From Bacillota bacterium (GTDB lineage: Bacteria; Bacillota; Dethiobacteria; DTU022), in assembly GCA_012800855.1 (NCBI GenBank), contig JAAZIN010000001.1, forward strand, positions 1-39,048: a stretch of DNA of 39,048 nt, written 5' to 3'. The translations under genes were made by a program, and so were the position numbers. This document shows positions 6,237 to 38,614 of this stretch, piece after piece. The first letter of the stretch is position 1, and each line of letters begins with the position of its first letter. The notes under the pieces are model-generated. The model made no database searches. It was not told the DNA's origin and worked only from the letters and a program-made list of their open reading frames with translations.

Positions 6237-6360
6237 TTAAATCCCCCCGGCCCCCCTTTGGCAAAGGGGGGAGTTTTTTTAGTTCTTTTTCCAAAGGTGG
6301 GAGTTTATTTAGATCATTTGCAAAGGGGAAAGCATCTGAAGCTCTTTTGCAAAAATAAGC
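6237..6360 (+). repeat. Degenerating tandem repeat array (copy A)
   Basis: Seed AAATCCCCCCGGCCCCCCTTTGGCAAAGGGGGGAG, then progressively decayed units CTTTTTCCAAAGGTGGGAG, CATTTGCAAAGGGGAAAG, CTTTTGCAAAAA. Confidence 0.7.
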
Positions 6361-11235: not shown

Positions 11236-11271
11236 CAAAAAAGGTGCCGGGGCGCGTCCCCGCCACCTTTT
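11236..11271 (-). terminator. Rho-independent terminator of serA
   Basis: Minus strand AAAAGGTGGCGGGGACGCGCCCCGGCACCTTTTTTG, at the serA stop codon. Confidence 0.85.
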
Positions 11272-12856
11272 ACCGCCAGGAGGAGAGTTCCACGAAGCGG
11301 GCCGAGCCGATGACATCAAGCTGCCTGAGCTTCTCCATTACTCCATCGGGAATGCGCTGGTCAACCTGCAGCACCATCATGGCTTCGCCGCCCACCGATT
11401 TCCGCCCCAGCTGCATGCTGGCAATATTGACATTCTCCGCCCCCAGGAGGGTACCCACCTTGCCGACGACGCCGGGGCGGTCGTGGTGGGTCGTGATGAG
11501 CATGTAGCGGGCGGGCACCACCTCGATGCGGTAATCGCCAATCTGGGTGATGCGGATATCGTCATGGCCCAGGAGGGTCCCGGCGAGGCGGTGCGCCGCC
11601 GCCCCCTCCCGCACGTTAACCTGCACCAGGCTGCTGTAGCTCTTCACCTCCGCGGTGGAGCTTTCCCGAACCCGGATCCCCCGCCGCTTCGCCACCAGGA
11701 GAGCGTTGACCGGAGTCACCGGCACATCGGTAATCCCCTGCAGCAAGCCGGCCAGGCAGGCCGAGGTCAGCGGGGCCAGCGGCAGGGAGGCCACCTCCCC
11801 GGAGTAGACGATCTCGATTTCATCGATGGAGCCGCCGAAGAGCTGCATGTAAAAGCTGCCCAGCAGCCGCATCAGCGGCAGGTAGGGCTCCAGCGCCGCA
11901 GCCGCCTCCGGCATCAGCGAGGGCACGTTCACCGCCGAGGTAACCGGCTCGCCCGAGAGGGCTTTCAGCACCTGCTCGGCCACCTGCAGGGCCACGTAGG
12001 CCTGGGCTTCACGGGTCAGGGCACCGAGATGGGGCGTGGCGATGACATTGTCCAGCTCCAAGAGAGGGCTGCCGGCAGGGGGCTCTTTTTCAAAGACGTC
12101 CAGCGCCGCCCCCGCTATCTTCTTCTCCACCAGGGCCCGGTAGAGGGCCTCCTCGTCGACGACGCCACCGCGGGCGCAATTGATGAGCATGGCTTCCGGC
12201 TTCATCAGGGCAAGCTGCTCCGCTCCAATGAGATGGCGCGTGGAGGGCATGAGGGGAACGTGAAGCGAGACGAAATCGGACTGCCGCAGCAGTTCGGGCA
12301 GCTCCACCAGCTTCACCCCGATCTTGGCGGCATGCTCCGCCGATATGTGAGGGTCGCAGGCCAGCACCAGCATGCCCAGGGCGCGGGCGCGGCGGCCCAC
12401 TTCGCTTCCCACGTGGCCCAGCCCGATGATGCCCAGGGTCTTCCGGTTCAGTTCCATCCCCATGAAGCGCTCCCTCTCCCAGCCGCCCCGCTTGACGGAG
12501 TAGTTTGCCGCGGGGATATTCCGGGCCAGCGATACCAGGAGGGCCAGGGTGAGCTCCGCAGCCGACACGGTATTGGCTTCCGGGACGTTGACCACGATGA
12601 TCCCCCTCTCGGTAGCCCGGGCCACATCGATGTTGTCCACTCCCACGCCGGCCCGTCCAATCACCTTTAACCGGCGGCCCGCATCGATGATATCGGCGGT
12701 CACGCGGGTGCTGCTGCGCACGATGAGGGCGTCGTAATCGCCGATGCTCTGCCGCAGCTCTTCAGGCGACAGCCTGGGGCGCAAGTCCACCTGCGCCTGC
12801 TGCTGCAGCAGTTCCACCCCCTGCGGGGAAAGAGGATCGCTGACCAGGATCTTCAT
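11270..12856 (-). CDS. serA: D-3-phosphoglycerate dehydrogenase (with ASB and ACT domains)
   Basis: MKILVSDPLSPQGVELL; GRAGVGVDNIDVARATERGI; LGIIGLGHVGSEVGRRA; C-terminal ACT domain HHDRPGVVGKVGTLLG. Confidence 0.95.
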   Translation of the reverse strand: MKILVSDPLSPQGVELLQQQAQVDLRPRLSPEELRQSIGDYDALIVRSSTRVTADIIDAGRRLKVIGRAGVGVDNIDVARATERGIIVVNVPEANTVSAAELTLALLVSLARNIPAANYSVKRGGWERERFMGMELNRKTLGIIGLGHVGSEVGRRARALGMLVLACDPHISAEHAAKIGVKLVELPELLRQSDFVSLHVPLMPSTRHLIGAEQLALMKPEAMLINCARGGVVDEEALYRALVEKKIAGAALDVFEKEPPAGSPLLELDNVIATPHLGALTREAQAYVALQVAEQVLKALSGEPVTSAVNVPSLMPEAAAALEPYLPLMRLLGSFYMQLFGGSIDEIEIVYSGEVASLPLAPLTSACLAGLLQGITDVPVTPVNALLVAKRRGIRVRESSTAEVKSYSSLVQVNVREGAAAHRLAGTLLGHDDIRITQIGDYRIEVVPARYMLITTHHDRPGVVGKVGTLLGAENVNIASMQLGRKSVGGEAMMVLQVDQRIPDGVMEKLRQLDVIGSARFVELSSWR

Positions 12857-12957
12857 ATCAAAGCAACCTCCACTGCGGTGTTTAAGATCGCGGCGCCAAC
12901 CCGGCCGGCCGCCGGGCCAGCCCGTGGACTTTTCTTGCAACAGGCTCGTTTAAATTG

Positions 12958-13019: not shown

Positions 13020-14429
13020 CTACCGCGGGCGGCCGGTGGACAGGTGCAGCGGCCTGCCGGAGGCGGCAAGGGCGGCTTCCCAGAAGGCTTCGCTGAGCGT
13101 GGGGTGGGGATGGATGAGCCGCTCCAGTTCAGGCAGCTTTGCCCCGGCAGCCACGGCCAGGGTCCCCTCCTGGATGAGGTCGGAGGCATGGGGGCCCAGG
13201 ATATGCACCCCCAGGACCGTCTCCGTTTCGGCATCGGCGACGATCTTGACAACTCCCTCCCCCTCACCCTGGAGGAAGGCTTTCCCGTTGGCGCTGAAGG
13301 GGAACTTGCCCACCTTGACGGCGTATCCTGCGGCACGGGCCTCTTCCTCGGTCATGCCGGCGCGGGCCAGCTCGGGATGGGTAAAGATGCATACCGGCAC
13401 CGCTTTCCCGGAAAAGGAGGCGCTTCCGCCGGCGGCATTTTCCGCGGCCACCATCCCCTGGTGTATGGCGGTGTGCGCCAGGAAGTAGCCCGGGTTGGCC
13501 ACATCGCCGATGGCATAGATCCCGGGAACACTCGTGGCCATATGCTCATCCACGTCAATCCCCCGTTCGCTGCAGCTGATGCCGACAGCCTGCAGGTCCA
13601 GCCCGCCGAAGCTGGGCTTGCGCCCCACCGCCAGGAGCACCTTCTCCGCGGTGAGCTCCTCCTTCCCGCGCGGACCCTCCACGGCCAGGATAAGTTTCCC
13701 GTCGGGGGCGGCGCTAATCCCGCGCAGGGCTGTCTCCGTCAGCACCCGGATCCCCTGCCGGCGGAGGCATGGCGCGAGGCGGCGCACCATCTCGCGATCC
13801 TCGCGGCGCAGCAGGATGCTCCGCTGGACTATGGTCACGTCAACGCCAAAAGCAGCAAAGATGGTAGCCATTTCCAGGGCAATAACACCGCCGCCGATCA
13901 CCGCCAGGCTGGAGGGCAGCTCGGTCAAGGCCAGCGCCTCCCTTGAGAAGATCACCCCGGGCAGATCCGCCCCGGGAACAGGAGGCACGACCTCGCTGCT
14001 GCCCGTGGCGATGATGAGCTTGTCGAATTGCGCGGTGCGCGTCTCCCCGCCGGGGAAGGCTGCCCGGACCTGCCTACCGGGGAGCAGTTCGGCCCGGCCA
14101 GGCCATACCGTCACTCCGGCGGATTTGAGCAGCCTCTCCAGGCCGCGGAGGAGGTTTTCCACCACGGTGTTTTTGTGCCTTTGAACTGCCGCGTAATCAA
14201 AGGCAACCTCGCCGGGAGTGATACCGAATTCCGGGGCCGATTGGAGGCTGCGATAGAGAGAGGCGCAGTGAAGGAGGCTTTTTGTGGGGATGCAGCCGTG
14301 ATTCAGGCAGGTGCCGCCGAGGCGCTCCTGTTCAATAAGGAGGGTTTTCAGACCCAGGGCCGCTCCCCGCAGCGCCGCGCTGTAGCCGCCCGGCCCCCCG
14401 CCGATAATGATGAGCTGGAATTTTTCCAT
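13020..14429 (-). CDS. lpdA: Dihydrolipoyl dehydrogenase
   Basis: MEKFQLIIIGGGPGGYSAALRGA; redox motif GGTCLNHGCIPTKSL; C-terminal HILGPHASDLIQE and HPHPTLSE. Start 14429 preceded by GGAGGTAAT. Confidence 0.95.
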   Translation of the reverse strand: MEKFQLIIIGGGPGGYSAALRGAALGLKTLLIEQERLGGTCLNHGCIPTKSLLHCASLYRSLQSAPEFGITPGEVAFDYAAVQRHKNTVVENLLRGLERLLKSAGVTVWPGRAELLPGRQVRAAFPGGETRTAQFDKLIIATGSSEVVPPVPGADLPGVIFSREALALTELPSSLAVIGGGVIALEMATIFAAFGVDVTIVQRSILLRREDREMVRRLAPCLRRQGIRVLTETALRGISAAPDGKLILAVEGPRGKEELTAEKVLLAVGRKPSFGGLDLQAVGISCSERGIDVDEHMATSVPGIYAIGDVANPGYFLAHTAIHQGMVAAENAAGGSASFSGKAVPVCIFTHPELARAGMTEEEARAAGYAVKVGKFPFSANGKAFLQGEGEGVVKIVADAETETVLGVHILGPHASDLIQEGTLAVAAGAKLPELERLIHPHPTLSEAFWEAALAASGRPLHLSTGRPR

Positions 14430-14492
14430 GAATTGATTACCTCCTGCCTGGAGTATTTCCGCACCAAAAACCGGTTTATTTGCCTGGTTGAT

Positions 14493-14540
14493 ATTAAATC
14501 CCCCCCGGCCCCCTTTTAAAAAGGGGGGCCGGCCGGCGTG
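14493..14540 (+). repeat. AAATCCCCCCCGGCCCCC palindromic repeat, single unit (copy B)
   Basis: TTAAATCCCCCCCGGCCCCCTTTTAAAAAGGGGGGCCGGCCGG; same seed as the arrays at 6.2 kb and 25.9 kb. Confidence 0.65.
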
Positions 14541-14593: not shown

Positions 14594-15367
14594 TTAATGC
14601 TCCCCGCCCTGGGATGTCCTCCTGTTGTCCTGCACGAGCCATTCCACGTGGAAAAGGCGGGCGAAGGCCTCCGCTAGGGCGGCGGCCAGTTTTTCTCTAC
14701 TGATGTTATAGCCCAGGTCCAGGAGGCCGGCGGCTCTACGCCCCAGGTCTTCCAGGTAGGTGCCCTCATCGCTGCCGGGCCGGGGCCGTAGCACCTGCCG
14801 GTAGGCCTCAAGCGGCAGCTCCAGCAGGATGGAGCCATGCTGCAGGATCGCGCCCTTGCGGCGCAGCTGGGCGCTGCCGACCACCTTCTTGCCGCGCACC
14901 TGCAGTTCATGGGCCGAAGGCGTATCGAAGCAGGAGCCGGGGGCCAGGGCCGGCCCGGCGCCCCGCCTGCTTTCGGGGCTGAGCTCCGCCTCAATCCCCA
15001 GGGCGGCAAAGGCCTCCATCAAGGCCCTGCTGATAAACAAATACGATGCCGTTACTCCCGCCGGGACAAGCTCGCGGCAGTCGGGAATGACCAGGCTGTA
15101 GGTGAGCTCGCGGTCGTGCAGCACCGCGCGCCCCCCGGTGGGGCGGCGGACCACGTCTATGCCCAGGCGGCGGCAGGCGGCGAGGTCGGCCACCTCTTCC
15201 GCTTCCTGGAAGCGGCCCAGGGAGAGGGCCGGCGGCGACCAGCTGTAGAGGCGCAGCGCCGGAGGCACCTCCCCGGCGGCCACCTCTTCGAGCAGCTCCA
15301 GGTCCCGCCGCATGTTTGCCGCCCCGGGCAGGGGCGGATCTAATATCAGGCGCCACAATTCTGCCAA
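14594..15367 (-). CDS. LipM/LplA-type lipoyl/octanoyl transferase
   Basis: RRPTGGRAVLHDRELTYSL; GSCFDTPSAHELQVRGKKVVGSAQLRRKGAILQHGSILLEL, with a Cys-Phe at the LipM-type active-site position. TTG start with AGGAGGGT upstream. Confidence 0.88.
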   Translation of the reverse strand: MAELWRLILDPPLPGAANMRRDLELLEEVAAGEVPPALRLYSWSPPALSLGRFQEAEEVADLAACRRLGIDVVRRPTGGRAVLHDRELTYSLVIPDCRELVPAGVTASYLFISRALMEAFAALGIEAELSPESRRGAGPALAPGSCFDTPSAHELQVRGKKVVGSAQLRRKGAILQHGSILLELPLEAYRQVLRPRPGSDEGTYLEDLGRRAAGLLDLGYNISREKLAAALAEAFARLFHVEWLVQDNRRTSQGGEH

Positions 15368-15383
15368 GCAGTTACCCTCCTCT

Positions 15384-16412
15384 CTATGGCTCTCTCCAGG
15401 GAGCGAAGAAACGGCAGCCGTTTATATCATCAAAACCGGGCGGGGGTGAACCCCGCCCCTGCCTGTTCTCCTCTTGCATGAGGCCGAGGGCGGCGGCGGT
15501 TTCGGCTGCGCTGAGGGGGCGCGGGTAGTTGTAGATAAAGCCGCCGGGACGCTCGTTGTAATAGGGGCGGTTGCAGCCGGGGCAGCCGCTGGTTTGAAAG
15601 GCCTCGCCCCCGCCGAGGAGGCGACGCAGCTCCTCCCCGCCAATCCCGAAGGAGACGAGCCGCCCTTCCTTGAAGCGCAGGCCCTCCCAGGCAACATAAC
15701 CAAGCCGCAGCAGGTAGTAGAGTGCCTGCAGGCGGCGGTAGGAGGCCGGCTCGGGCGGGGGATGGTTCTCCAGCGGGGTGCCCTTGAGGGGGGTGAAGGC
15801 AAAGAGGCCCACGGCAATCCCTTCCCGCACCAGCAACTGGAGCAGCCGCGCCGCCTCCTCCTCGCTTTCGCCAAGGCCCAAGATGAGGTGGGTGCTCATC
15901 CGCCCCGGCCAGAGGCGAGCGCACCCCCTAAGCAGTCGCAGGCGCCTTGCAAAGCCGCCGCCCTTGCAGCGGGCGGCGAGCTCCGCCGTGGCCGTGTCGA
16001 GGGCGATGGAGATGCGCTCCGCTCCCGCCTCGAAAAACATGGCCGCCTCGGCAGCGGAATGCACGGGGGCGGATAGGGAAATGGGCAGCCCCACCGCGCC
16101 TCTCAACTGGCGGATCAGCTCCGCCAGGGAGCCAGCGCCGCCCGGTTCGCAGAGGGCCTGCAGGCAGATCCGCTGCAGCCCCCTCCCCGCCTCCCGCTGC
16201 AACGCGGCGATGACCTCCTCCCGCGGGAAGGGGGGCCAGCTCACCCGGCCCAGCCGTCCCGCTTTCCCCTCCGCCCCTCGCGCCTGGGGGCAAAAGGCGC
16301 AGTTCATGCGGCAGCTTTCGCCGTAGAGCAGGTAGGCGGTAGTGGGCAGGGTCTCCGCCCGCAGGTTGATCAAGCCCAGGCGGGCCGCCGTCCCAATGGA
16401 CAGGCGAATCAC
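15384..16412 (-). CDS. Radical SAM protein, LipS2-like candidate lipoyl synthase partner
   Basis: CX3CX2C motif CRMNCAFC; TSGCPGCNRPYYNERPGGFIYNYPRPLS near the C-terminus. GTG start 16412 overlaps the upstream stop as GTGA (ORF extends to 16424). Confidence 0.8.
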   Translation of the reverse strand: MIRLSIGTAARLGLINLRAETLPTTAYLLYGESCRMNCAFCPQARGAEGKAGRLGRVSWPPFPREEVIAALQREAGRGLQRICLQALCEPGGAGSLAELIRQLRGAVGLPISLSAPVHSAAEAAMFFEAGAERISIALDTATAELAARCKGGGFARRLRLLRGCARLWPGRMSTHLILGLGESEEEAARLLQLLVREGIAVGLFAFTPLKGTPLENHPPPEPASYRRLQALYYLLRLGYVAWEGLRFKEGRLVSFGIGGEELRRLLGGGEAFQTSGCPGCNRPYYNERPGGFIYNYPRPLSAAETAAALGLMQEENRQGRGSPPPGFDDINGCRFFAPWREP

Positions 16413-17266
16413 AGCGCGCAGCACTCCTCTCCCGTGGATACCTGGAGGCCCATCTGCGCGGCCAGCCTTCTGGCCGCGGCGGCCGGATGGACAATTTTAT
16501 CAATCCCTGCCTCCAGGGCGAGGCAGTCGAGCTCCTCGCGGTAGCGGCCGCCCGGGCGCATGCAGCCGAGGTAAAGGGGCGTCCGCGGAAAGAGAGCCCG
16601 CGCATGGGCCAGGAGCTCCGCCACCGCGTCGGGCGGCGGCGGGGCGGCACCGGCAAGCCTCGTCCCCGGGGTGGGGCGGAAGACGATAAAGCTAATCGCC
16701 TCCGCCCCCTCCCGGCGCAGCATCTCCAGCGCGCGGCACTCGCTCTCGATGCGCCCGCCCATTATGCCGATGCAGATGTGGGGCACCACGCGGCCATGGC
16801 GCCGCAGGCAGCGGTAGGAGCGGAGGTAATCCTCCGGCGCAGCTTCCAGGCCGTAAACATCCTTGATTACCCTCTCGTCGGCCACGAAATCAAAGGAGAA
16901 GGCGCGAGCAATCATTCCCATGGCCGCCGCCTCCGCCTCGCCAACGAGCCCGGGATGGAAGTTGAGCGAACCCCGACGCGCCAACGCCTCCAGCTCCGCC
17001 CATCTTTCCCCGTGCGGTACGCGCCCCTGCCGGTCGCAGCCGCCGCTGACGAGGAAGCTCCTGTAGCCGACGCCCCGCCGGCCCAGCGCCTCCTCCAGCG
17101 TGGCCATCCCCCGCAGGTAGTGCCCCCCGCAGTGAGCGCAGTTTAAATCGCACGACCGGCCGGTGACGCTAACCGGCAAGGTGAGGCGGGGGTAGACAAA
17201 TTCCACCCGCCCCGTGACAAGGCAACCGCTGCTGCGGCCGCACCGGCCGGCCCTCTCCGGGAACAT
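16409..17266 (-). CDS. Radical SAM protein, LipS1-like candidate lipoyl synthase partner
   Basis: CX3CX2C motif CDLNCAHC; C-terminal STGEECCAL; ATG directly abuts the gcvPB stop (TAGATG). Confidence 0.8.
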   Translation of the reverse strand: MFPERAGRCGRSSGCLVTGRVEFVYPRLTLPVSVTGRSCDLNCAHCGGHYLRGMATLEEALGRRGVGYRSFLVSGGCDRQGRVPHGERWAELEALARRGSLNFHPGLVGEAEAAAMGMIARAFSFDFVADERVIKDVYGLEAAPEDYLRSYRCLRRHGRVVPHICIGIMGGRIESECRALEMLRREGAEAISFIVFRPTPGTRLAGAAPPPPDAVAELLAHARALFPRTPLYLGCMRPGGRYREELDCLALEAGIDKIVHPAAAARRLAAQMGLQVSTGEECCAL

Positions 17267-18739
17267 CTAGCTGCTCCCCCCGTCACCATCCCAGCAGACC
17301 CGGGGATGGCGCGCCGCCCTGACCTCGTCCAGCCGCCCCACGGGGGTAGTGTGGGGAGCGGAAGTGAGGCGTTTCGGATCCTCTTCCGCCAGGCGGGCAA
17401 TCTCCTCCATGGCCTCGGCAAAGCGATCCAGGGTCGCCTTGCTCTCCGTCTCGGTGGGCTCCACCATGAGCGCCTCTTCAACGATGAGAGGAAAGTAGAC
17501 CGTGGGCGGGTGGAAGCCGTAGTCCAGCAGCGCCTTGGCGATATCCCTGGCCGTGACCCCCATCTTCTTCTGCCGGCGGGCCGAGAGCACAAACTCGTGC
17601 TTGCAGCGCCGGTCGTAGGGCAGATCATAGCTCTTCTTCAGCCGCTCCATGAGGTAATTGGCATTGAGAACGGCGTCGGCGGCCGCCTGCCGGAGCCCTT
17701 CCGCCCCCATCATCATGATGTAGGCATAGGCTTTGACGACCACGGCGAAATTGCCGTAGAAGCCGTGCACCCGGCCGATGCTCAGGGGCAGGTCTTCCTT
17801 CCAGTAATATCCCTTTTCGCCCCGCTCCACCAGCGGCACGGGGAGGAAGGGCACCAGGTGTTCCCTCACCCCCACGGGGCCGCTGCCGGGGCCGCCGCCG
17901 CCATGGGGCGTGGCGAAGGTTTTATGCAGGTTCAGATGGACCAGGTCGAAGCCCATGTCGCCGGGACGGGCGTGGCCCATGATGGCGTTGAGGTTGGCCC
18001 CGTCGTAGTAGAGCAGCCCGCCCGCTTCATGGACCGCCTCGGCAATCTCGAGGATGTCCTCCTCGAAGAAACCCAGGGTGTTGGGATTGGTGAGCATGAG
18101 GGCGGCGACATCGCCGTCCAGGGCCGCCCGGAGCGCTTTGAGATCCACCAGCCCGCGTTCATCGGAAGGGATTTCCTTGACCTCGAAGCCGGCCATGGCC
18201 GCCGAAGCGGGATTGGTCCCGTGGGCGGAGTCGGGGACAAGAACCGTTTTGCGATGATCATTCCTGGACCGGTGGTAGGCACGAACGATGAGCATCCCCG
18301 TCAGCTCCCCGTGCGCCCCCGCCGCCGGCTGGAAGGTGACCCGCTTCATCCCTGTTATCTCGGCCAGGCAGGCCTCGGCCCGGTAGAGCAGCTCCAGGGC
18401 CCCCTGGACGCTCTCCTCCGGCTGGCAGGGATGGAGGAAGGCGAAGCCGGGCAGCCGGGCCAGTTCCTCGTTGACCTTGGGGTTGTACTTCATCGTGCAC
18501 GAGCCCAGGGGGTAGAAGCCGGAATCAACGCCGTGGTTGCGGGTGGAGAGGGCGGTGTAGTGGCGCACCAGCTCCCCCTCGGAGAGCTCGGGCAGCGCCA
18601 GGGGGAGGCCTCGCCGCAGCCTTGCCGGCAGGAGTTCCTCCAGCGGCTTAACCGGCACATCGGGCGGCGGCAGGGAGCAGCCGCGCCGACCCGGGGCGCC
18701 CAGTTCAAAAAGCAAAGGCTGTTCTTTTCTCACAACCAT
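17267..18739 (-). CDS. gcvPB: Glycine dehydrogenase (decarboxylating) subunit 2
   Basis: [72 protein letters not shown]. Confidence 0.96.
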
Positions 18740-20088
18740 CCCTCCAGTGCTCTGGCGAGGGCGTCAATTTGCTCCCGCGTTTTTGTTTCAGTGACGCAGA
18801 AGAGCATGGCCGGGCCCAGTTCGGGGTAGTAAGTTTCGAGGTCGAGCCCGCCGATGATCCCGTGCTCCAGCAGGTGGCGGTTGAGGCGACTGCCACTGCC
18901 GGGAAGCTTCACCGCAAACTCCTTGAAATGCACCCCGGGAAAGGCCGGGGCATAGCCTTCCAGGGAGGCAATCTTCTCCCGGGCGTAGGCCGCCTTCTGC
19001 AGGCAGAGCTCCGCCACCTCGCGCAGCCCTTCCGGCCCCATGGCCGCCAGGTAGGCGGCGGCGGCAAGGGCGTTGAGGGCCTGGTTGGAACAGATGTTCG
19101 AGGTGGCCCTTTCACGGCGGATGTGCTGCTCGCGTGTCTGCAGTGTGAGGACGAAGCCGCGCCGGCCCTCGCCATCCACCGTCTCCCCCACGATGCGCCC
19201 GGGGAGGCGCCTCAGCAGCTCCCGGCGGGCTGCAAAGAAGCCCAGCAGCGGGCCGCCGAAGGAGGGCGGGCTGCCCAGGCCCTGCCCTTCGCCGGTGGCG
19301 ATGTCGGCGCCGTACTCTGCCGGCGCCCGGAAGAGGGCCAGGGAGAGGGGATCCACCGAGAGCACCAGCAAAGCGCCGTGACGGTGGGCCATCGCGGCGG
19401 CGCCCTCCAGCTCCTCCTCGAGGAGGCCGAAGAAGTTGGGCTGCTGCAGCAGCAGCGCCGCCGTCTCCCCGTCGAGCATCGCCTCAAGCCGCGAAAAGTC
19501 GGTGGCCCCATCGGCGAGGGGTATTTCCAGCAACAGGCAATCACGCCCCTCCAGGTAGCTCTGCAGGACCCGGCGGTAGTGGGGGTTGACGGAGCGGGAA
19601 ACGAGCACCTTGCGGCGGCGGGTCATGGAGCAGGCCGCCAGTGCCGCCTCGGCCAGGGCGGTGGCCCCGTCGTAGAGGGAGGCGTTGGCCGCCTCCATGC
19701 CGGTAAGGCGGCAGATGAGGGTCTGGTACTCAAAAATCGACTGCAGCAGGCCCTGGCTGATCTCGGCCTGGTAAGGGGTGTAAGCGGTGTAAAACTCGCT
19801 CCGCCCCACCACGTGCTGCACCACGGCGGGGATGAAGTGATCGTAGACGCCGGCGCCGAGGAAGCAGGGATGGTCCTGCAGGTTCATGTTCTTCGCCGCC
19901 AGCGCGCCCAGATGGGCCCGCAGCTCCATCTCCGAGAGAGGCGGCGGCAGCTTAAGCCCGTTTTCTTTCAGGCGGACCTCTGCCGGCAGTTCGTCAAAGA
20001 GCTGCTCCATCGAGGCGGCGCCGATGGCGGCCAGCATCTCCCGCCGCTCCGCGTCAGTTAGGGGCAAGAAATGGCGGCCGCCGCTCAT
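18730..20088 (-). CDS. gcvPA: Glycine dehydrogenase (decarboxylating) subunit 1
   Basis: [78 protein letters not shown]. Confidence 0.96.
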
Positions 20089-20483
20089 TCCTTGACCTCC
20101 TCCTCCAGGAGGACGGCATAGGCCTCCTCGTCCAGCAGGTCGGGATTCTCGTAGCCGGGGGCCACCTTCATCTTCACCACCCAGGCCTCCCCGTAGGGGT
20201 CCTGGTTGAGCAGCTCCGGCTGCTCCAGGAGAGCCTCGTTAACCTCCACCACCTCGCCGTCCACCGGCGCGTAGAGGTCGGAGACCGCCTTCACCGATTC
20301 CAGCACCGCCAGGCTCTCCCCCGCCTGCGCCAGCCGCCCCACTTCCGGCAGCTCCACGTAAACAATATCCTTGAGCATATCCTGGGCGTAGTCGGTAATC
20401 CCCACCGTGGCCAGGTCCCCTTCTAGGCGGACCCACTCGTGGGTGCGGGTATACTTCAAGCCTTTCTGCACTTGCCAGTTCAT
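20085..20483 (-). CDS. gcvH: Glycine cleavage system H protein
   Basis: [39 protein letters not shown]; lipoyl-Lys region [24 protein letters not shown]. Confidence 0.97.
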
Positions 20484-21628
20484 TTCGACTCCCTCCTGTA
20501 GAATGGTAATGTCACCACCTGGGCGCGGTGCGCCCTATCACGGATGACAACCTGCACCGCCCGGCCCGGCACCGCCTCCCCTGTCGCGAGAAAGGCCATC
20601 CCGATGGAGCGGTTCAGCGTGGGGGAGTAGGTTCCGCTGCTGACCACGCCGATCTCCTTCTCGCCGTCAGAGACGGGGTAGCCCTCCCGGATTACGCCCC
20701 GCTCCAGCAGGATAAGGCCGCACAGCCGCCTGGACAGCCCGGCCTCCATTTGCTGCAGCAGTGCCTCCCGGCCAATGAAAGGACCTTTTTTAAAGGAGAT
20801 GAAGCGCTCCAGCCCCGCTTCCAGGGGCGAGATGGACTCGCTCAATTCATGGCCGTAAAGGGGCAGCCCCGCCTCGAGGCGGAGCACGTCGCGCGCTCCC
20901 AGTCCTGCCGGGACCAGGCCGAGATGGCGCAGCTCCCCGGCTTCCAGGAGGGCACCCCAGAGCGCTTCGGCCTTCCCGGCGGGACAGAAGATCTCGAAGC
21001 CGTCCTCCCCGGTATAGCCGGTGCGCGATACCAGGCACTTGATTCCCGCCAGCTCCACCTCAGGGAGAAAATGGTAGTAGCGCAGCTGCTCCAGGGGCGC
21101 CCGCCCCAGGGCCTGCAGCACCGCCAGGCTGTTGGGTCCTTGTAGGGCAAGCAGGGCCGTCTCCGCCGAGATATCGCGCAGGCTCATGCCCGGCTTGGCC
21201 CTCTCGCTGAGCCACTCGTAATCCTTCGCCGTGTTGGCCGCGTTGACCACGACCAGGTATCTCTCGGCACCGCACCTGTAGACGAGGATGTCGTCCACCG
21301 TCCCCCCGTGGGGATAGCACAGCGGGCTGTAGATGATGCGGCCGTCGTAAAGGGCGGAAATATCGTTGGTAAGCACTTCCTGCAGGAAAGCGGCCGCCCC
21401 CGCCCCCTCGACGAGAAATTCGCCCATGTGGGAGACATCGAAGAGGGCCGCCTTCTGCCGCGTCTGCCGCACCTCGGCAATGATCCCCTCGTACTGGATG
21501 GGCATGATCCAGCCGCCGTATTCAGCCAGTGCGGCTTTAAGCGCCCGGTGCCTTTCAAAAAGGGGGGTCTTTTTGAGTTCAGCCACCTCTTTCACCACCT
21601 TGGTCCTAGTATCCCCGGCCGCCTTCAA
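20480..21628 (-). CDS. gcvT: Glycine cleavage system aminomethyltransferase T
   Basis: [61 protein letters not shown] start (a GTG nearer 21587 is possible). Confidence 0.95.
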
Positions 21629-22065: not shown

Positions 22066-24117
22066 TCAGCCCCATGGCCGGCCTACAGCAGTGATTTCAA
22101 TGACCGTTTCTATAAACAGCTTATGCTCCAGGCTGCCTTCTTCTCCCGAGCCGTCCAGCCGTCTGAGATTGGCAATGCGGTCCTGCCGCTCCACGAGCAG
22201 CTCCATCTCCGACGCCCCCGCCGCTGCCGCCTGCGCTCGGACATACTCCTTTCCTTCCTGTATGGCCCTGGCGACCGCCTCCTCGAGATGAGAGGCTCTT
22301 TCCCGGCCCCAGGGCGCGTGGACGATAAAGCCCTCTTCGCCGTCGGGCCGGACGAGGATGAAGGCCCGCTCCACTGTCTGCCCGCTCACTGTCCCCACGG
22401 CATTGGCCACTTCCGCCGATGGAGGGATGAGCAGCTCCGCCTGCAGTCTCCTGGCAATTTCAGGAAAGTAGGCCCCGGCCGGGGCGCCCACCACCACCAG
22501 GGGCAGGTTAAGCCGGGCCGAAAATTCCACCGCCTCCCTGCCCTTGTCAGGCCTGAGTATCTCCTGCAGGAAAAAGCAGCCGGTCTCGTCTTTCCTGAAA
22601 TCAATCCGCTCTCCTTCCCCGCCAGACAGCAGCCGCCCAATGATCAGCGCGGCGATTTGAAAGTAGATCTTCTCCAGGACCTCTTCCACAAACTGGCCAA
22701 TCCCCGCATTGTACCTGCGGGCGAGGATTTTTACGCCCAGCCGCGCCGCCTCGCCATCCCAGGGCGCGTAGGCCCCGGTAAGATGAAGTATGTCCGTGGG
22801 CGTCACAGAAGCGGGAAGCACGGCGCCGCTTCGGACCAGCCTCTGCCAGGGCAGCAGGTCAAAGTCGCGCTGCATCTGCAGGCCGATGTGGTGGAGGGTA
22901 TGGGGCTGCTCTTTAACCAGGCTTAATATCTTCTCCTCGTCGTCGCTGAGGGGCACATTGCGGGGCTCCTTAATGTAGACCAGCACCATGGAAGGGAGGA
23001 TCTCCGAAAGGGCATACTCGTACTCCTTGATGCTGGAGAGTTCCGCGAGCAGGTGGGGATGTTGCGCCGCGATGCCGGAGAGGGGAAAAACCCGCTGCGG
23101 CCCGATGGAGAGCCTGCCCTTTCGATCCACGTGGATGAGACTGTCCCCGCCCAGCCCGGTAGTAGTTATGGCCGCGGCCCGCACGCGGGTCAGCCAGCCG
23201 CCAACGCGAGCTCCGGAGCTGCTCATCGCCGGGCGGCCGTTTCGCAGCACGGCCAGGTCGGTGGTCGTCCCGCCCATGTCCACCACGATGGCCTCTTTTG
23301 CCCCGGTCAGGGCAAGGGCCCCGATTATGCTTGCCGCCGGCCCGGAGAGAATGGTCTCTATGGGCCGCTCCCGTGCCTTCCTCTCGCTGATGAGGCTGCC
23401 GTCTCCCTTTACCACCATCAGGGGAGCACCAATCCCCCACCGCTCCAGGCTCTTCTTCACGGCGGCGATGAGGTCGGTGATGAGAGGGATGAGGCGGGCA
23501 TTGAGGACGGCGGTTACCGTGCGCTCGTAAAAGCCCAGATCGGAGCTGAGCTGGTGGGCGCAAACCACCGGGCGCCCGGTGAGCTCCCGGATTAAAGCGG
23601 CTACGGCCAGTTCCTGGGCGGGATTTCTCACGCTAAGGTAGCCGGAGACGGCAAAGGCCTCCACCTGCCCTTTCATGGTCTCGGCCGCCGCCACGGCGGC
23701 TTCCAGGTCTACCTCTTCCCGGTATTCCCCTTTCAAGTCGCAGCCGCCCTTGATGGTCACGTAATGCGCCGTGGGCAGCTCCGGCGGCGGCTCGTTAAAG
23801 CCAATCATGATCAGCCCCACCTCGGCCCCCCGCCCCTCCACGATGGCATTCGTGGCCAGGGTGGTGGAGAGGGCGACCATCTTGATACGGGAGAGGTCAA
23901 GGGCCGGCTCCGCCGCGCCCGCCCCCAGTGCGGGCGCCCTCCCCTTCCCGCTACAGCTTTCCATCAAGTGGGCGAGACATGCCTCTATGGCCGGGGTCAG
24001 GTCGGGCCTGCTGGTGAGGACCTTGCTCTTGGCCAGGATCTCCTTCCGGTCAAGGTCAAAAAGAACGCCGTCGGTGAAGGTGCCCCCTGTGTCTATGCCC
24101 AGGGCCAGGTTGGCCAT
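22066..24117 (-). CDS. Hydantoinase/oxoprolinase family protein (HyuA-like)
   Basis: MANLALGIDTGGTFTDGVLFD; STTLATNAIVEGRGAEVGLI; VVDMGGTTTDLAVL. ATG 24117 preceded by GAGGAGG. Confidence 0.88.
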   Translation of the reverse strand: MANLALGIDTGGTFTDGVLFDLDRKEILAKSKVLTSRPDLTPAIEACLAHLMESCSGKGRAPALGAGAAEPALDLSRIKMVALSTTLATNAIVEGRGAEVGLIMIGFNEPPPELPTAHYVTIKGGCDLKGEYREEVDLEAAVAAAETMKGQVEAFAVSGYLSVRNPAQELAVAALIRELTGRPVVCAHQLSSDLGFYERTVTAVLNARLIPLITDLIAAVKKSLERWGIGAPLMVVKGDGSLISERKARERPIETILSGPAASIIGALALTGAKEAIVVDMGGTTTDLAVLRNGRPAMSSSGARVGGWLTRVRAAAITTTGLGGDSLIHVDRKGRLSIGPQRVFPLSGIAAQHPHLLAELSSIKEYEYALSEILPSMVLVYIKEPRNVPLSDDEEKILSLVKEQPHTLHHIGLQMQRDFDLLPWQRLVRSGAVLPASVTPTDILHLTGAYAPWDGEAARLGVKILARRYNAGIGQFVEEVLEKIYFQIAALIIGRLLSGGEGERIDFRKDETGCFFLQEILRPDKGREAVEFSARLNLPLVVVGAPAGAYFPEIARRLQAELLIPPSAEVANAVGTVSGQTVERAFILVRPDGEEGFIVHAPWGRERASHLEEAVARAIQEGKEYVRAQAAAAGASEMELLVERQDRIANLRRLDGSGEEGSLEHKLFIETVIEITAVGRPWG

Positions 24118-24339
24118 AGCCGCTGCCTCCTCGCTTTGCAGCAATGCCTAATGCCTGCTGCTACTGCCGGCTTCCTCCAATGGGGAATCGGCATTTCCAG
24201 TATAATGTGAGCCGGCAAAGCCGGTCAAGCCGGGGCACCCAGCCAGCCCTTTGTTTAGAATATTGGAAGGAATATTAAAATTATGGATGGAATAACAGTA
24301 CTCGTAACATTTGGCAGGCTGCCGGAAGGAGTGAGGAAG

Positions 24340-25870: not shown

Positions 25871-26035
25871 AAAATCCCCCCCGGCCCCCCTTTTTCAAAG
25901 GGGGAGTTTAGAAGAGCTTTTTTCAAAGGGGGGTAGAAGAGCCCTTTTCAAAGGGGAGAGTTAAGAAGACTCTTTTCCAAAAAGGAAGCTAATAAGAGTC
26001 TTTTTCAAAGGGTGGACCTAATAAGAATCTTTCTA
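25871..26035 (+). repeat. Degenerating tandem repeat array (copy C), about 5 units of 26-30 nt
   Basis: Seed AAATCCCCCCCGGCCCCCCTTTTTCAAAGGGGGAG, then TTTTTTCAAAGGGGGGTAGAAGAG / CCCTTTTCAAAGGGGAGAGTTAAGAAGAC / TCTTTTCCAAAAAGGAAGCTAATAAGAG / TCTTTTTCAAAGGGTGGACCTAATAAGAA. Confidence 0.75.
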
Positions 26036-26789: not shown

Positions 26790-28520
26790 TTATTCTCTTT
26801 CCCCCTGCCAAAAGGCAGCGAGCGCCTCCTTCACCTCCGCTGCGCTTTTCATCTGCAGCAGCTTCTCCGCCAGGCCGGCTGCTTCTGCCCTGGCGCATTT
26901 CCCCACCGCTTCCTTGGTAGAAAGAACCGCGGCGGCGGCAACACTGAGCTCGTCAATGCCCACGCCCACCAGGAAGGGGATGAACAGGCTGTCCGCGGCG
27001 GCTTCGCCGCAGACGCCGACGGGAATCCCCCTGGCATGCGCCGCTTTAACGGTCATGTGGATGAGCTTGAGCACGGCCGGGTGGTAATGGCTGGCCAGCC
27101 GGGCTACCCTTTCGTTGGTCCTGTCCACGGCCAGGGTATACTGCACCAGGTCATTGGTGCCAATGCTGAAAAAGTCCATCTCTTCGGCGAGGGCCTCGGC
27201 AATCAGGGCGGCAGAGGGTATTTCAATCATTGCTCCTATCTCGACGGGCTCGGCAAGGCGGTGCCCCTCCTCCAAGAGCTCCCTTTTCACCTCTTCCACG
27301 ATGGCGCGGCCTCTCCTGGCCTCTTCAAGGGAGGAGATCATGGGAAACATGATCTTGAGAGGGCCGCTGCGGGAAGCCCGCAGGAGGGCCCGCAGCTGGG
27401 GCTTGTATATCTCGGGGCGTTCGAAGTAGAGCCGCACGGCCCTGTAGCCCAGGAAGGGGTTCTGCTCAGGCGCAAGATTAAGGTAAGGAATCTCCTTGTC
27501 GCCGCCCACGTCCAGCGTCCGGATGATGACCGCCTGCCCCTTCATCTTCTGGACAGCCTCCTCGTAAACCGCCAACTGCTCCTCCTCCGAGGGGAGCCGC
27601 TCCTGCTCCATGTAGAGAAATTCGGTGCGGAAGAGGCCGATCCCCTCGGCGCCCTGCTCCAGCAGGCGCGCCAGGTCGCCCCGGCAGCCCATGTTGCCCG
27701 CCACAATGATCCTGTGCCCGTCCCGGGTGCGCGCGGGGCAGGTGCGGTAATAGGCGAGACGCTCCCGCCTCTGCTGTTCCATCTCCTGCCGGCGGCGGTA
27801 CGAGTCCAGGACCTCCGGCGTGGGGCGGAGAATGACCAGCCCTTCATCGCCGTCAACAATGACCATGTCTCCCGCGTTGACCTTTTCCAGCATCTCTGCT
27901 CCCGCGCCGACCACCGCCGGGATGCCCAGCGAACGTGCCATGATGGAAGTATGCGAGGTCCGGGAACCCGCCGCTGTAGCGAAAGCTAAAACCATGGCCG
28001 GTTCAAAGAGGGCCGTTTCAGAGGGGGTAAGGTCATGGGCGAAGATGATCACCGGCTTCTCTAAGCGCGGCTTATGTTGCCGGCCGCCCTGGAGCTGGCT
28101 GATGATCTGCACACCCACGTCCTTAAGATCGGCGGCGCGAGCCCGGATATACTCGTCTTCTACGCAGGCAAAAAGGGACCCCAGCTCTCGGACAACCGCG
28201 TCAATTGCCGCGGCGGCGCTCATCTTCTCCTGCTTAATCTTCTCGCGCACCGGAGGGATGAACTCGGGGTCATCAAGGAGCATCATCTGCGCCTGGAAGA
28301 TCTCCGCTTCCTTGGCCCCCACCCTGGCGGCGGTGCAAGCGATTAAAGCCTGCAATTCCTCCCGCACCCCCTCGAGGGCTCGCTCCAGCGCGGCCAGTTC
28401 CGCCTCCACCGCCCCTTCGGCTATGCGCGCCTCGCCGATGTCCAATTCCCGCTGCTCCTGGCGGTAGGCCGGGCCGATGGCGATGCCCGGCGAGGTCCCG
28501 GTAGCGTGAATTATCTCCAT
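26790..28520 (-). CDS. ptsI: PTS enzyme I (phosphoenolpyruvate-protein phosphotransferase)
   Basis: GSRTSHTSIMARSLGIPAVVG phospho-His region; EGIGLFRTEFLYMEQERLPSEEEQ; DFFSIGTNDLVQYTLAVDRTNERVA; GIPVGVCGEAAAD. Confidence 0.96.
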   Translation of the reverse strand: MEIIHATGTSPGIAIGPAYRQEQRELDIGEARIAEGAVEAELAALERALEGVREELQALIACTAARVGAKEAEIFQAQMMLLDDPEFIPPVREKIKQEKMSAAAAIDAVVRELGSLFACVEDEYIRARAADLKDVGVQIISQLQGGRQHKPRLEKPVIIFAHDLTPSETALFEPAMVLAFATAAGSRTSHTSIMARSLGIPAVVGAGAEMLEKVNAGDMVIVDGDEGLVILRPTPEVLDSYRRRQEMEQQRRERLAYYRTCPARTRDGHRIIVAGNMGCRGDLARLLEQGAEGIGLFRTEFLYMEQERLPSEEEQLAVYEEAVQKMKGQAVIIRTLDVGGDKEIPYLNLAPEQNPFLGYRAVRLYFERPEIYKPQLRALLRASRSGPLKIMFPMISSLEEARRGRAIVEEVKRELLEEGHRLAEPVEIGAMIEIPSAALIAEALAEEMDFFSIGTNDLVQYTLAVDRTNERVARLASHYHPAVLKLIHMTVKAAHARGIPVGVCGEAAADSLFIPFLVGVGIDELSVAAAAVLSTKEAVGKCARAEAAGLAEKLLQMKSAAEVKEALAAFWQGERE

Positions 28521-28816: not shown

Positions 28817-29467
28817 CTACCCTTCCATAGATTTTTTTAACAGGGCGTAATTCTCTTCCAGGGATCCCTGCTTGAACAGGCTCCTCCCCACCACTACGAT
28901 ATCGGCGCCGGCGCGAACCACTTCGGCGATGTTCCCGGGAGCGATCCCCCCGTCCACCATCCACTTGACCCCCTCCAGCCCGAGCTGCTGCCGGCCGCGG
29001 GCCACTTTTTCCAGCACCCCGGGGAGGAAAGGGGCATCATCGTACTCCGGTTCGGTGGTCAGTATGAGCACGTAATCGAGGTGAGGCCGGTAAATCTGCA
29101 GCGGAGGCAGCTCCGTTTTGGGATTGAAGGCCAGGCCCGCTTTCATGCCGTGGCGCTTGATCAGGCCCAGGGTGCGCCGGGGATAGGGGCAGGCCTCGTA
29201 ATGCACCGACACCCAGTCGGCGCCCATTTCGGCCAGCGGGCCAATGATCCACTCCGGCTGGCGCATCATGAGATGGACATCGAAGGGCAGCCTGCTCAAG
29301 GGGCGCAGGTCGGAGATGATCTTCACCCCCAGGGTCATCACCGGGACAAAGCTGCCGTCCTCGACGTCAAAGTGGATCATGCCCACGCCAAGCCTGTTCA
29401 GGTCGTCAATTACTTTTTCTAGGTGGTGCAGCGGAGCTGCAGCCAGGGAGGGAGCGATGGTCACCAT
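28817..29467 (-). CDS. Ribulose-phosphate 3-epimerase family protein (SgcE-like)
   Basis: IAPSLAAAPLHHLEK; MIHFDVEDGSFVPVMTLG; FDVHLMM; WMVDGGIAPGNIAEVVRAGADIVVVGRSLF. Confidence 0.9.
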   Translation of the reverse strand: MVTIAPSLAAAPLHHLEKVIDDLNRLGVGMIHFDVEDGSFVPVMTLGVKIISDLRPLSRLPFDVHLMMRQPEWIIGPLAEMGADWVSVHYEACPYPRRTLGLIKRHGMKAGLAFNPKTELPPLQIYRPHLDYVLILTTEPEYDDAPFLPGVLEKVARGRQQLGLEGVKWMVDGGIAPGNIAEVVRAGADIVVVGRSLFKQGSLEENYALLKKSMEG

Positions 29468-29474
29468 GATAAGT

Positions 29475-30290
29475 TTACACCCCTAGGTTGGCCCTGAACT
29501 GGCGGACTTTGTCCATGAACGCTTTGACCCGCTTCACGTCAACAGGATTTTCAAATTTCCCGTCAACCTTGAAGGTGGTGCCGACCACGGCACCGTCGGC
29601 GATGGAGAGTTGCTGCTCCACATTCTCCGGGCGGACACCGGTATTGGCAAATACAAGCGTGCCCGGTACAGCCTGCTTCACCAAGCTGAGAGTCTGGGTG
29701 TCTGTTTCCGCGCCTGCAGTCAAACCGGAGACGCAAAGCGCGTCAGGGCGGGCATTGAAGACAGTGCTCTTGGCGATGGAGACAACATCCCGCTGCGAGA
29801 GGTAGACGGCGCCTTCGGGAACAATGTTGAACAGCAGCTTCACCTCTCCGGCCCCGATGGCATGCTGGTGCCGCACTACTGAGCCGCAGTCGGTGTTCCA
29901 AAGGCCGAAGTCGCTGGCGTAAACGCCGGTAAAAATCTCCCGGACGAACTTGGCCCCGGTAGCCACGGCCAGGTCCAGCGACGCAACGGGATCCCAGAGC
30001 ACGTTTACCCCGAAGGGAACTTCTATTTCAGAAAACAGTTCACCGATGATGCGGGCCATGGAGGCCACCGTTTCCGTTCTCACCCTGGTGAGGTAGGGCA
30101 TGCTGAATTCGTTGGAGAACATGACCGCGTCCACGCCCCCTTCCTGCAGGGCGTCCAGGTCCCTGCGGGCGGCCTCGATGACCTTCCTCATACCACCGGC
30201 CCGGTCATAGCCCGGATCGCCCGGCAGCGGAAGGAGATGACACATGGCAATAATCGGCTTCTCCGTCCCAATAATCTCTTTGGTCCACAT
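29475..30290 (-). CDS. BtpA/SgcQ family protein
   Basis: IIAMCHLLPLPGDPGYD; DALQEGGVDAVMFSNEFSMPYL; SGLTAGAETDTQTLSLVK; ADGAVVGTTFKVDGKFENPVDVKRVKAFM. Start 30290 with GGAAG SD (ORF extends to 30329). Confidence 0.9.
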   Translation of the reverse strand: MWTKEIIGTEKPIIAMCHLLPLPGDPGYDRAGGMRKVIEAARRDLDALQEGGVDAVMFSNEFSMPYLTRVRTETVASMARIIGELFSEIEVPFGVNVLWDPVASLDLAVATGAKFVREIFTGVYASDFGLWNTDCGSVVRHQHAIGAGEVKLLFNIVPEGAVYLSQRDVVSIAKSTVFNARPDALCVSGLTAGAETDTQTLSLVKQAVPGTLVFANTGVRPENVEQQLSIADGAVVGTTFKVDGKFENPVDVKRVKAFMDKVRQFRANLGV

Positions 30291-30329
30291 GTTTATCTTC
30301 CTTTCAATGTTTACATTTTTTGGCGTCAT

Positions 30330-31430
30330 TTAGCGTCCTCGGCTCAAGTCAAGGCTGCCGTCAAAGCGGCTGATAGCTTCATTTATAAGAGAGGCGCACC
30401 ACTGGATGTCTCGCAGGTCCGCCGTCTCAATGGGCGCATGCGTGTAGCGGAGCGGCACGGAGAGATGGGCCATGGCCGTCCCCTCATCGCCCGCCAGCTG
30501 GGTAAAGGCATCGTCGGTGATCACTCCAATGACCACCTCGCGCTGGTAGGGAAGCTGCATCTCCTCGGCGGTCCGCTCCAGGAAGCGCCTCAGGCGGGGA
30601 TTGGGAATAAGCCCGCCGAGAGTGCCGCGGCCGTGGAAATTCATCTGCGTTACCGCGGGGCCCTTGCCCAGGGCGATCTCGTATTTCATCTTCAGGTCAG
30701 GCGTATCGCAGGCCGGCGTGATGTCGAGGCAGATGGCCGCCGCCGGCTGCAGCTTTTGAAATACCGGCAGCAAGCCCCGCACATTGAACTCTTCCTGGAC
30801 CGAGGCCACCAGGTATACGGTCACTGCAGGCCGGTGCCGGTGCAGGTATTCCGCCGCTTGCAGCAGGAGGTATACGCCGATTCGATTGTCCAGCGCCTTG
30901 CCGGCGATGCGGTACTTGCCCAGCCGGGTGAGGCTGGCGCGGTAGGTAACCGGGCTGCCGGCATTAATCCCCGCAGCCAGCACCTCCTCGCGGCTGCCCA
31001 TGCCCACGTCTATATACATCTGCTCCCTGGCGGGGATGGTTCGCTTGGCCTCATCCGGGGTCAGGTGATGGGCATAAGCCCCGATGACGCCGGGGTAGCT
31101 GCGACTGCCGTCAACGGCAAATACCTCCACGAACTGCCCCAGCAACGTCTTTTCAGGCACCCCGCCAATGCGCTCAAAGCGCAGGAAGCCGCTTTCCTCA
31201 ATTTTGCAGACCATGAGGCCCACCTCGTCGAGATGGGCAAAAACCAGCAGTTCCGGCCCCCCGGGATCTTTCCCCTTGAAGATGGCCGTGACATTGCCGA
31301 CGCGATCCACGTCCACTTCGTCGGCATACTGCTCCAGGCGGCGCTTGACTATCGAGATCAAGGGATCTTCAAAACCGGAAGGCGCGGCCACTTCGGTCAA
31401 AGCCTTCAGCTGCTCATATACCTTTTCCAT
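30330..31430 (-). CDS. M42 family metallopeptidase (SgcX-like)
   Basis: APSGFEDPLISIV; ELLVFAHLDEVGLMV (metal ligand HLDE); GKALDNRIGVYLLLQA; ASVQEEFNVRGL. Confidence 0.92.
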   Translation of the reverse strand: MEKVYEQLKALTEVAAPSGFEDPLISIVKRRLEQYADEVDVDRVGNVTAIFKGKDPGGPELLVFAHLDEVGLMVCKIEESGFLRFERIGGVPEKTLLGQFVEVFAVDGSRSYPGVIGAYAHHLTPDEAKRTIPAREQMYIDVGMGSREEVLAAGINAGSPVTYRASLTRLGKYRIAGKALDNRIGVYLLLQAAEYLHRHRPAVTVYLVASVQEEFNVRGLLPVFQKLQPAAAICLDITPACDTPDLKMKYEIALGKGPAVTQMNFHGRGTLGGLIPNPRLRRFLERTAEEMQLPYQREVVIGVITDDAFTQLAGDEGTAMAHLSVPLRYTHAPIETADLRDIQWCASLINEAISRFDGSLDLSRGR

Positions 31431-31453
31431 ATCTCACACCTCCTGCAATTTTA

Positions 31454-32209
31454 TTACCCCACATGCATCCTCCCGCCGTCGGCCACAATAATCTCTCCAC
31501 AGAGGTACGACGAAAGCTCGGAGCAAAGGAAAAGAACAATCCGGGCAATGTCTTCAGGGTAGCCGATGCGGCGGATCGGCATCATCGGCACATAGTGATC
31601 CAGAAGTGCCTGCTCGTCCTTATAGCGAGCCATGAGCATATCGCTTTTGATAACCGCCGGGGCGATGCCGTTAACCAGGATGCCCAGCGGGGCGTAGGTT
31701 CTGGCCAGGTAGCGCGTCAGGCTGCAGGTGCCTCCCTTGGAAACAGCATACTGGGGGATGCCGGTACTCCCTGTAAATGCCGCCGTAGACGATATATTGA
31801 TAATTCGACCGCTGCCCCGCTGCGCCATGTGGTCCTTTACCGCTTCAGCCATGTAGTAAGGGCCCTTGACATGGACGGCCCAGCTTTTATCCCAATCAGC
31901 CACCACGCCGGCATTGTTGATCAGAAAGTCAATCCGGCCGCATTGGTCGAGAACCTGCTCAATGAGAATGCGCGCACCTTCAGGCGTAGAAATATCCTGG
32001 CAGAAATAATGGGGCTCCGCGTCCTTGTTTTCCTTCCTTATTGATTCCAGCACTTCCGTGATCTTTTCGGCTGGAACCAGGTCATCCAGGGCAACCTGCG
32101 CCCCGGCCCGGGCCAGAAGCTGGGCTGTGCTCAGCCCTATGCCCTTGGCCGCTCCGGTAATCAGCGCAACTCGACCGCTTAAATCAATGGTGTAAGGAAT
32201 CTCCGCCAC
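31454..32209 (-). CDS. SDR family oxidoreductase
   Basis: GRVALITGAAKGIGLSTAQLL; LINNAGVV; YAVSKGG (YxxxK); GTG start. Confidence 0.93.
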   Translation of the reverse strand: MAEIPYTIDLSGRVALITGAAKGIGLSTAQLLARAGAQVALDDLVPAEKITEVLESIRKENKDAEPHYFCQDISTPEGARILIEQVLDQCGRIDFLINNAGVVADWDKSWAVHVKGPYYMAEAVKDHMAQRGSGRIINISSTAAFTGSTGIPQYAVSKGGTCSLTRYLARTYAPLGILVNGIAPAVIKSDMLMARYKDEQALLDHYVPMMPIRRIGYPEDIARIVLFLCSELSSYLCGEIIVADGGRMHVG

Positions 32210-32229
32210 CCCCTCGCTCCAGTAAGCAT

Positions 32230-33258: not shown

Positions 33259-33289
33259 AAGAATGGCCTCCCATTGCTAGTCGGGAACC

Positions 33290-33325
33290 GGGAGGGGCCG
33301 AGAGCGATTTTACCAGGCCCCTCCC
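33290..33325 (-). other. Intercistronic inverted repeat between IIC and dehydrogenase genes
   Basis: GGGAGGGGCC...GGCCCCTCCC, 10-bp arms, 16-nt loop. Confidence 0.6.
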
Positions 33326-33363
33326 TATCCGCCTCATACAAGCGCTCGCTTCAAAAGGCGCTT

Positions 33364-34641: not shown

Positions 34642-34653
34642 GCTTTCAACTCC

Positions 34654-34971
34654 TTATTTGTTATTTGAGTTCTGACCGTCAGTACCGATTTTGCGGACAG
34701 TATCCGCAATCTGCTGAACCAATTCTTTTTCTCCAATTCCGGTTAGCAGGGGCACTGCAGAAAAGACTGGCTTGCCTAGATCAACGGTTACCTGGGCATT
34801 ACTCACAATGATGTCGTAACTTTCGGCGCGATAAGGCAACTCATTATTCCCGCAGCCGTCGATGCTCACGTTGAGGTTTTCCTTTTCCAGGTATTCACGC
34901 AGCTTGTAGGCAGCGTGCATTGACGTGGCTACCCCTGAACCGCAAACAACCAAAATCTTCACTCTTTTCAT
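34654..34971 (-). CDS. PTS galactitol-type transporter subunit IIB
   Basis: MKRVKILVVCGSGVATSMHAAYKL phospho-Cys loop; 105 aa. Confidence 0.9.
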   Translation of the reverse strand: MKRVKILVVCGSGVATSMHAAYKLREYLEKENLNVSIDGCGNNELPYRAESYDIIVSNAQVTVDLGKPVFSAVPLLTGIGEKELVQQIADTVRKIGTDGQNSNNK

Positions 34972-35046
34972 CGCTACACCTCAATACTCCACCTGAAATC
35001 TTAAATACAGATAGCTCGCCTTTTGGCAGAATCACCCCCTTCTCTT

Positions 35047-38476: not shown

Positions 38477-38493
38477 CTCACCTGCTTTTATGC

Positions 38494-38509
38494 TGCAATT
38501 TACATGCCA
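38494..38509 (-). promoter_or_regulatory. Sigma-54 (-24/-12) promoter candidate
   Basis: Minus strand TGGCATGTAAATTGCA, against consensus TGGCACGNNNNTTGCA; exact GG-N10-GC spacing. Confidence 0.7.
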
Positions 38510-38614
38510 TACACAAACAGCCCCCGCCAATGCGCTAAGCATAGGGGGGTAGCGCCCTAACTCATACAAATCCGACATATTTCACACAAATCCTTCAATC
38601 AATTTCTGCCACAC

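Follow-up and report, generated by a model that had tools for sequence, protein, structure and literature searches.

The lipoyl synthase of Thermococcus kodakarensis is a pair of radical S-adenosylmethionine (SAM) proteins, LipS1 and LipS2, for which the order of sulfur insertion into octanoyl-lysine has been published as C8 (LipS2) and C6 (LipS1) (PMC9585515). In bacteria, the neighbourhoods of LipS1/LipS2 include GcvH and a gene of the biotin/lipoate ligase family (Neidhardt et al. 2022, PMC9585515). The same synthase pair is part of the sLpl(AB)-LipS1/S2 pathway (Tanabe et al. 2023, PMC10332631), and LipM replaces the ligase in some LipS1/S2 bacteria (Schekmanbacteria, Synergistota, and Thermotogota; PMC10332631). 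In the LipM-LipA system of Bacillus subtilis, the single-domain LplA-family transferase octanoylates GcvH (PMC7253636). Described here is an operon in which lipS1, lipS2, and a lipM-like gene follow the genes of the glycine cleavage system (gcv). It lies within a 39,048-nucleotide stretch of DNA (the window; contig JAAZIN010000001.1 of assembly GCA_012800855.1) from a Bacillota metagenome-assembled genome. The operon very probably makes, under the control of glycine, both the glycine cleavage system and the enzymes for lipoylating its H protein.

The operon is an uninterrupted run on the minus strand, from 21628 to 14594, in the order gcvT-gcvH-gcvPA-gcvPB-lipS1-lipS2-lipM. The aminomethyltransferase gene gcvT (20480-21628; TIGR00528, 390 bits, cut-off 236) and the lipoyl carrier gene gcvH (20085-20483; TIGR00527, 158 bits, cut-off 116) are followed by those for glycine dehydrogenase subunits 1 (gcvPA, 18730-20088; NF001696, 629 bits, cut-off 364) and 2 (gcvPB, 17267-18739; NF003346, 779 bits, cut-off 441). 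The radical-SAM lipoyl synthase subunit genes lipS1 (16409-17266) and lipS2 (15384-16412) come next, and the candidate lipM-like octanoyl transferase gene (14594-15367) closes the run. As read in the sequence, gcvT/gcvH and gcvH/gcvPA each overlap by 4 nucleotides and gcvPA/gcvPB by 10. The ATG of lipS1 at 17266 directly abuts the gcvPB stop (0 nucleotides between), the GTG start of lipS2 overlaps the lipS1 stop (GTGA, 4 nucleotides), and a 16-nucleotide gap separates lipS2 from the transferase gene. The original prediction, made from the letters of the DNA, had given this gene order with exact coordinates, and each of its junctions holds. Beyond what it described, a tandem glycine riboswitch (21928-21736) stands ahead of the operon, and two more minus-strand genes lie after the transferase. 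These are lpd, for dihydrolipoyl dehydrogenase or L protein (13020-14435; TIGR01350, 496 bits, cut-off 409), at a spacing of about 160 nucleotides from lipM, and serA, for phosphoglycerate dehydrogenase (11270-12940; TIGR01327, 672 bits, cut-off 454), which is a possible end of the gene run. By family scores, the T, H, P (two subunits), and L proteins of glycine cleavage are all encoded together.

Both radical-SAM proteins score above the curated equivalog cut-offs for their families: LipS1 with 263.8 bits (NF053742, cut-off 230) and LipS2 with 326.5 bits (NF053743, cut-off 270). Each contains one CX3CX2C motif, at Cys39/43/46 in LipS1 and Cys34/38/41 in LipS2. The CX4CX5C and RSSY motifs of LipA were absent from both in a motif search in which the LipA of a relative, used as a positive control, had both. 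LipA was rejected as an identity for either protein on these motifs and on the scores. In a 15-sequence alignment, LipS1 Cys39/43/46, His163, Cys235, Cys282, and Cys283 are invariant, as are LipS2 Cys34/38/41, Cys83, Cys277, and Cys280 in a 21-sequence alignment. Mutagenesis in T. kodakarensis mapped the auxiliary-cluster ligands to C230, C276, C277, and H159 of LipS1 and to C85, C276, and C279 of LipS2 (PMC9585515). All of these have invariant counterparts here (Cys235, Cys282, Cys283, and His163 of LipS1; Cys83, Cys277, and Cys280 of LipS2), assigned by motif and not by an aligned T. kodakarensis sequence. The pair thus resembles that of T. kodakarensis in its CX3CX2C motifs, its lack of CX4CX5C, and its mapped auxiliary ligands; it differs in its setting, a complete gcv operon with a LipM-like transferase in a Bacillota genome, and is known here from sequence.

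The pair could instead carry out other sulfur or radical chemistry, such as that of a biotin synthase, and merely neighbour the gcv genes. The LipS1 model (predicted local distance difference test, pLDDT, 88) is nearest to biotin synthase (BioB) among solved structures, and the LipS2 profile also matches BioB. Such a fold is expected, because LipS proteins were originally annotated as biotin synthases (PMC9585515). The BioB scores fall far below the BioB cut-off, the LipS1 and LipS2 cut-offs are exceeded, and every LipS-specific ligand is present, so that BioB was rejected and an unrelated chemistry is extremely unlikely. The identification of the pair as LipS1/LipS2, and the absence of the CX4CX5C cluster from both, had already been put forward in the original prediction and are borne out.

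The host genome is a draft of 1.97 Mb, spread over 170 contigs and about 95% complete. No match to lipA over the TIGR00510 cut-off and no E2 acyltransferase were found in it. One GcvH is encoded (the only GCV_H match), and its likely lipoyl-lysine, as read from the sequence, is Lys65 in ESVKA (codon 20291-20289). The only other protein with a biotin/lipoyl domain (84 bits) is on another contig and is probably a biotin carrier. The transferase is the only PF21948 (LplA/LipB-type) protein of the genome in a profile search. With neither lipA nor E2 found, and with a single GcvH and a single protein of the LplA/LipB fold, the organism probably lipoylates GcvH alone and probably has LipS1/S2 as its only lipoyl synthase. 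A canonical pathway of lipA plus lipB/lplA, which the original prediction had named as part of what would refute it, was looked for in the genome and not found. The earlier interpretation, a LipA-independent lipoylation module built into a gcv operon, is supported by the LipS1/LipS2 scores and ligands, by the lack of lipA, and by GcvH as the sole acceptor found.

The transferase consists of a single LplA/LipB-type domain (PF21948, 130 bits), and its AlphaFold model (pLDDT 90) has the LplA/LipB fold. Cys146 (codon 14932-14930) is the candidate catalytic residue and is kept in 97% of 65 homologues. It sits in a loop that LplA lacks, as judged by comparison with LplA. No ligase C-terminal or LplB-type domain (Lip_prot_lig_C, PF10437) was found in the protein or in the genome. 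The absence of a LipM match in NCBIfam is non-decisive. A rival account is that the last gene encodes an ATP-dependent lipoate/octanoate:protein ligase (LplA-like). The cassette would then use free octanoate or lipoate to lipoylate GcvH, like the published sLpl(AB)-LipS1/S2 pathway. The nearest solved structures, both by sequence and by fold, are the catalytic subunits of archaeal (Thermoplasma) LplA, and Lpl is a frequent partner of LipS1/S2 in bacteria (PMC10332631). The conserved Cys in its LplA-less loop and the lack of an LplB-type domain make a ligase unlikely, if less so than the other alternatives considered here, and make a LipM-like octanoyl transferase the likeliest reading of the sequence. 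The term LipM-like, used in the original prediction, therefore fits the single domain, Cys146, and the missing C-terminal domain; the archaeal LplA structures sit less easily with it.

Two loci of Chloroflexota type (L104:11924-12643 and L123:11816-12607) have the order lipS1-lipS2-transferase-gcvH with a transferase that lacks the conserved Cys loop. These two transferases are possibly ligases.

The riboswitch lies about 110 nucleotides before gcvT and is composed of two aptamers on the minus strand (21928-21826 and 21823-21736; Rfam RF00504, 63.4 and 54.0 bits, gathering threshold 32). It was the only glycine riboswitch found in a genome-wide search. It presumably governs the lip genes as well as the gcv genes. 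A more direct arrangement is present in two Peptoclostridium genomes, where lipS1-lipS2-lipM forms a separate unit and the nearest 10 kb or so contain no gcv gene. There, a glycine riboswitch lies directly before lipS1 (L093:9678-9786 and L116:9689-9791), and the gene next upstream of this unit points away. No lipA over the cut-off was found in either genome. This glycine sensor on the lipoylation genes themselves is the strongest evidence of their serving glycine metabolism. No report of this arrangement was found in the literature, of which coverage was partial. Another related locus (L051) has two extra glycine riboswitch aptamers (527-618 and 909-1007), some 4-5 kb upstream of the tandem riboswitch that belongs to its operon.

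Between lipM and lpd, a hairpin at 14508-14528 has the look of a terminator. It was rejected as one because it folds no more than modestly better than shuffled sequences (z of −1.6), a terminator scan reports nothing there, and the window contains similar palindromes at other places. Palindromes of the type CCCCCTTTT-N-AAAAGGGGG are found between genes at 6252-6270, 14509-14527, and 25886-25904, far above the shuffled expectation. On these grounds, the intergenic palindromes, including the lipM-lpd hairpin, are probably a dispersed repeat.

The proposed working of the operon is as follows. Glycine would bind the tandem riboswitch and the operon would be expressed. The LipM-like protein would transfer an octanoyl group to Lys65 of GcvH, probably by way of Cys146 and with acyl carrier protein as the donor. 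By analogy with T. kodakarensis, LipS2 is predicted to insert the first sulfur at C8 and LipS1 the second at C6, each sacrificing its auxiliary [4Fe-4S] cluster. Lpd would re-oxidise the dihydrolipoyl arm during glycine cleavage. Lipoylation by these particular proteins and the identity of the octanoyl donor are what we infer; Tanabe et al. likewise infer sulfur insertion into transferase-octanoylated targets (PMC10332631).

Related anaerobes widely share the arrangement. It was compared across 80 related loci, which were chosen by similarity, so that the frequencies do not describe all bacteria. The full gcvT-H-PA-PB-lipS1-lipS2-lipM order is present in 48 of the 80, with many others cut by contig ends. 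Of 77 scorable loci, 68 have gcvPB immediately before lipS1, and in 65 of 70 lipM comes immediately after lipS2, which argues against a chance gene order. Loci with a related operon include those of Sporomusa, Pelosinus, Propionispira, Propionispora, and Desulfotruncus. Many related loci have lpd after lipM, and serA also follows lpd in two of them (L046 and L051). GcvP and LipS distances correlate at 0.90-0.93 among the related loci, kinship ignored. Movement of the operon as a unit would fit this, and shared ancestry alone could give the same. Strong matches to GcvH and LipS1 were scored in 71 genomes of the order, again ignoring kinship; both are present in 37, neither in 28, and six are discordant. 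LipA over the cut-off was not found in Peptoclostridium litorale or Propionispira arboris.

Several points weigh against the reading of a dedicated glycine cleavage and lipoylation operon. The sequence does not settle transferase versus ligase, and assignments of this kind within the family have been called perilous and able to mislead (Cronan 2020, PMC7253636). The co-occurrence counts and distance correlations ignore shared ancestry. Sporomusa silvacetica, Pelosinus fermentans, and Desulfotruncus have both LipA and LipS1/S2, and LipS1/S2 is therefore not always the only lipoyl synthase. In a draft of this kind, a lipA or E2 gene could also lie in a gap. A canonical lipA in the unassembled part could then do the work, with the LipS pair redundant, and the presence of both systems in some relatives and the state of the assembly leave room for this. 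It is nevertheless very unlikely, as lipA is also missing from a genome of the same genus and from most of the family. Where lipA is present, it is often near E2 or GcvH-like genes, and no E2 was found here.

The LipS1/S2 route, a rarer way to lipoic acid, LipS1/S2 with LipM, and LipS1/S2 beside GcvH are already published (PMC9585515, PMC10332631), so the operon is a clear case of a kind already known, not a new system. It shares its synthase pair with the system of Tanabe et al., which differs in its experimentally tested target, LbpA of sHdr sulfur oxidation; in the present genome, no target other than GcvH and no LipA were found. With B. subtilis it shares a single-domain LplA-family transferase. 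Here LipS1/S2 replace LipA, and no substrate for a LipL relay (E2) or second member of the transferase family was found. Two features deserve follow-up: the direct control by a riboswitch and the pairing of synthase with substrate.

The second of these concerns relatives that contain a 2-oxoacid dehydrogenase. In three of them, LipA adjoins the E2 gene, twice with LipB: E1beta-E2-E3-lipB-lipA (L136), E2-E3-lipB-lipA (L137), and E2-SDR-lipA (L138). LipS1 is also encoded in each of these genomes. The pattern, seen in three genomes only, suggests that each substrate has a lipoylation module of its own. Contrary placements exist, with LipA near GcvH-like proteins in L140 and a ligase in the E2 neighbourhood in L142. 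The pairing of LipA with E2 genes in LipS1-carrying genomes was not found in the literature searched. According to a proposal cited by Cronan (PMC7253636), lipoylation was ancestrally confined to GcvH. It is possible, though doubtful, that lipoylation is organised by substrate, with LipS1/S2-LipM dedicated to GcvH under glycine riboswitches and LipA (with LipB) to 2-oxoacid dehydrogenases. The two synthases would then operate side by side without cross-talk, and lineages that, like this one, appear to lipoylate GcvH alone would represent that proposed ancestral state today.

Other gene associations were observed near LipA. GcvH-related (LbpA-like) proteins occur near LipA with URO-D, DGC, and dihydrolipoyl dehydrogenase-like genes (L140:7250-7726, with LipA nearby, G064:C41; and G065:C29). 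At L139:1177-5412, LipA and a LipM-like transferase are followed by an FeS-domain protein, a SPASM radical-SAM protein, and a metallophosphatase.

Elsewhere in the window, a hydantoinase/oxoprolinase-family protein of 692 amino acids is encoded just upstream of the riboswitch on the same strand (22066-24144, minus). A T-box leader (63-338, plus) and a selenocysteine tRNA (1939-2030, minus) are near the window start. A 585-amino-acid open reading frame (229-1986, minus) overlaps the T-box region and the end of this tRNA, has no Pfam or NCBIfam match, and is possibly spurious. A cluster with a sugar-alcohol-type phosphotransferase system (PTS) and a DagR-like regulator (EIIC-GAT, alcohol dehydrogenase, epimerase, BtpA/SgcQ, and M42 peptidase) is located at 28817-38578 (minus), accompanied by PTS enzyme I at 26790-28520.

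The operon would tie cofactor-building genes to glycine sensing. It is a clean and conserved case in which LipS1/S2 is apparently the sole lipoyl synthase and GcvH the sole substrate, and the specificity of LipS1/S2-LipM is testable in cultured relatives. In other hosts, where lipoylation of the H protein matters, it could serve as a self-contained module for building a functional glycine cleavage system or reductive glycine pathway. The apparently GcvH-only lipoylation of this organism also bears on the proposal of an ancestral GcvH.

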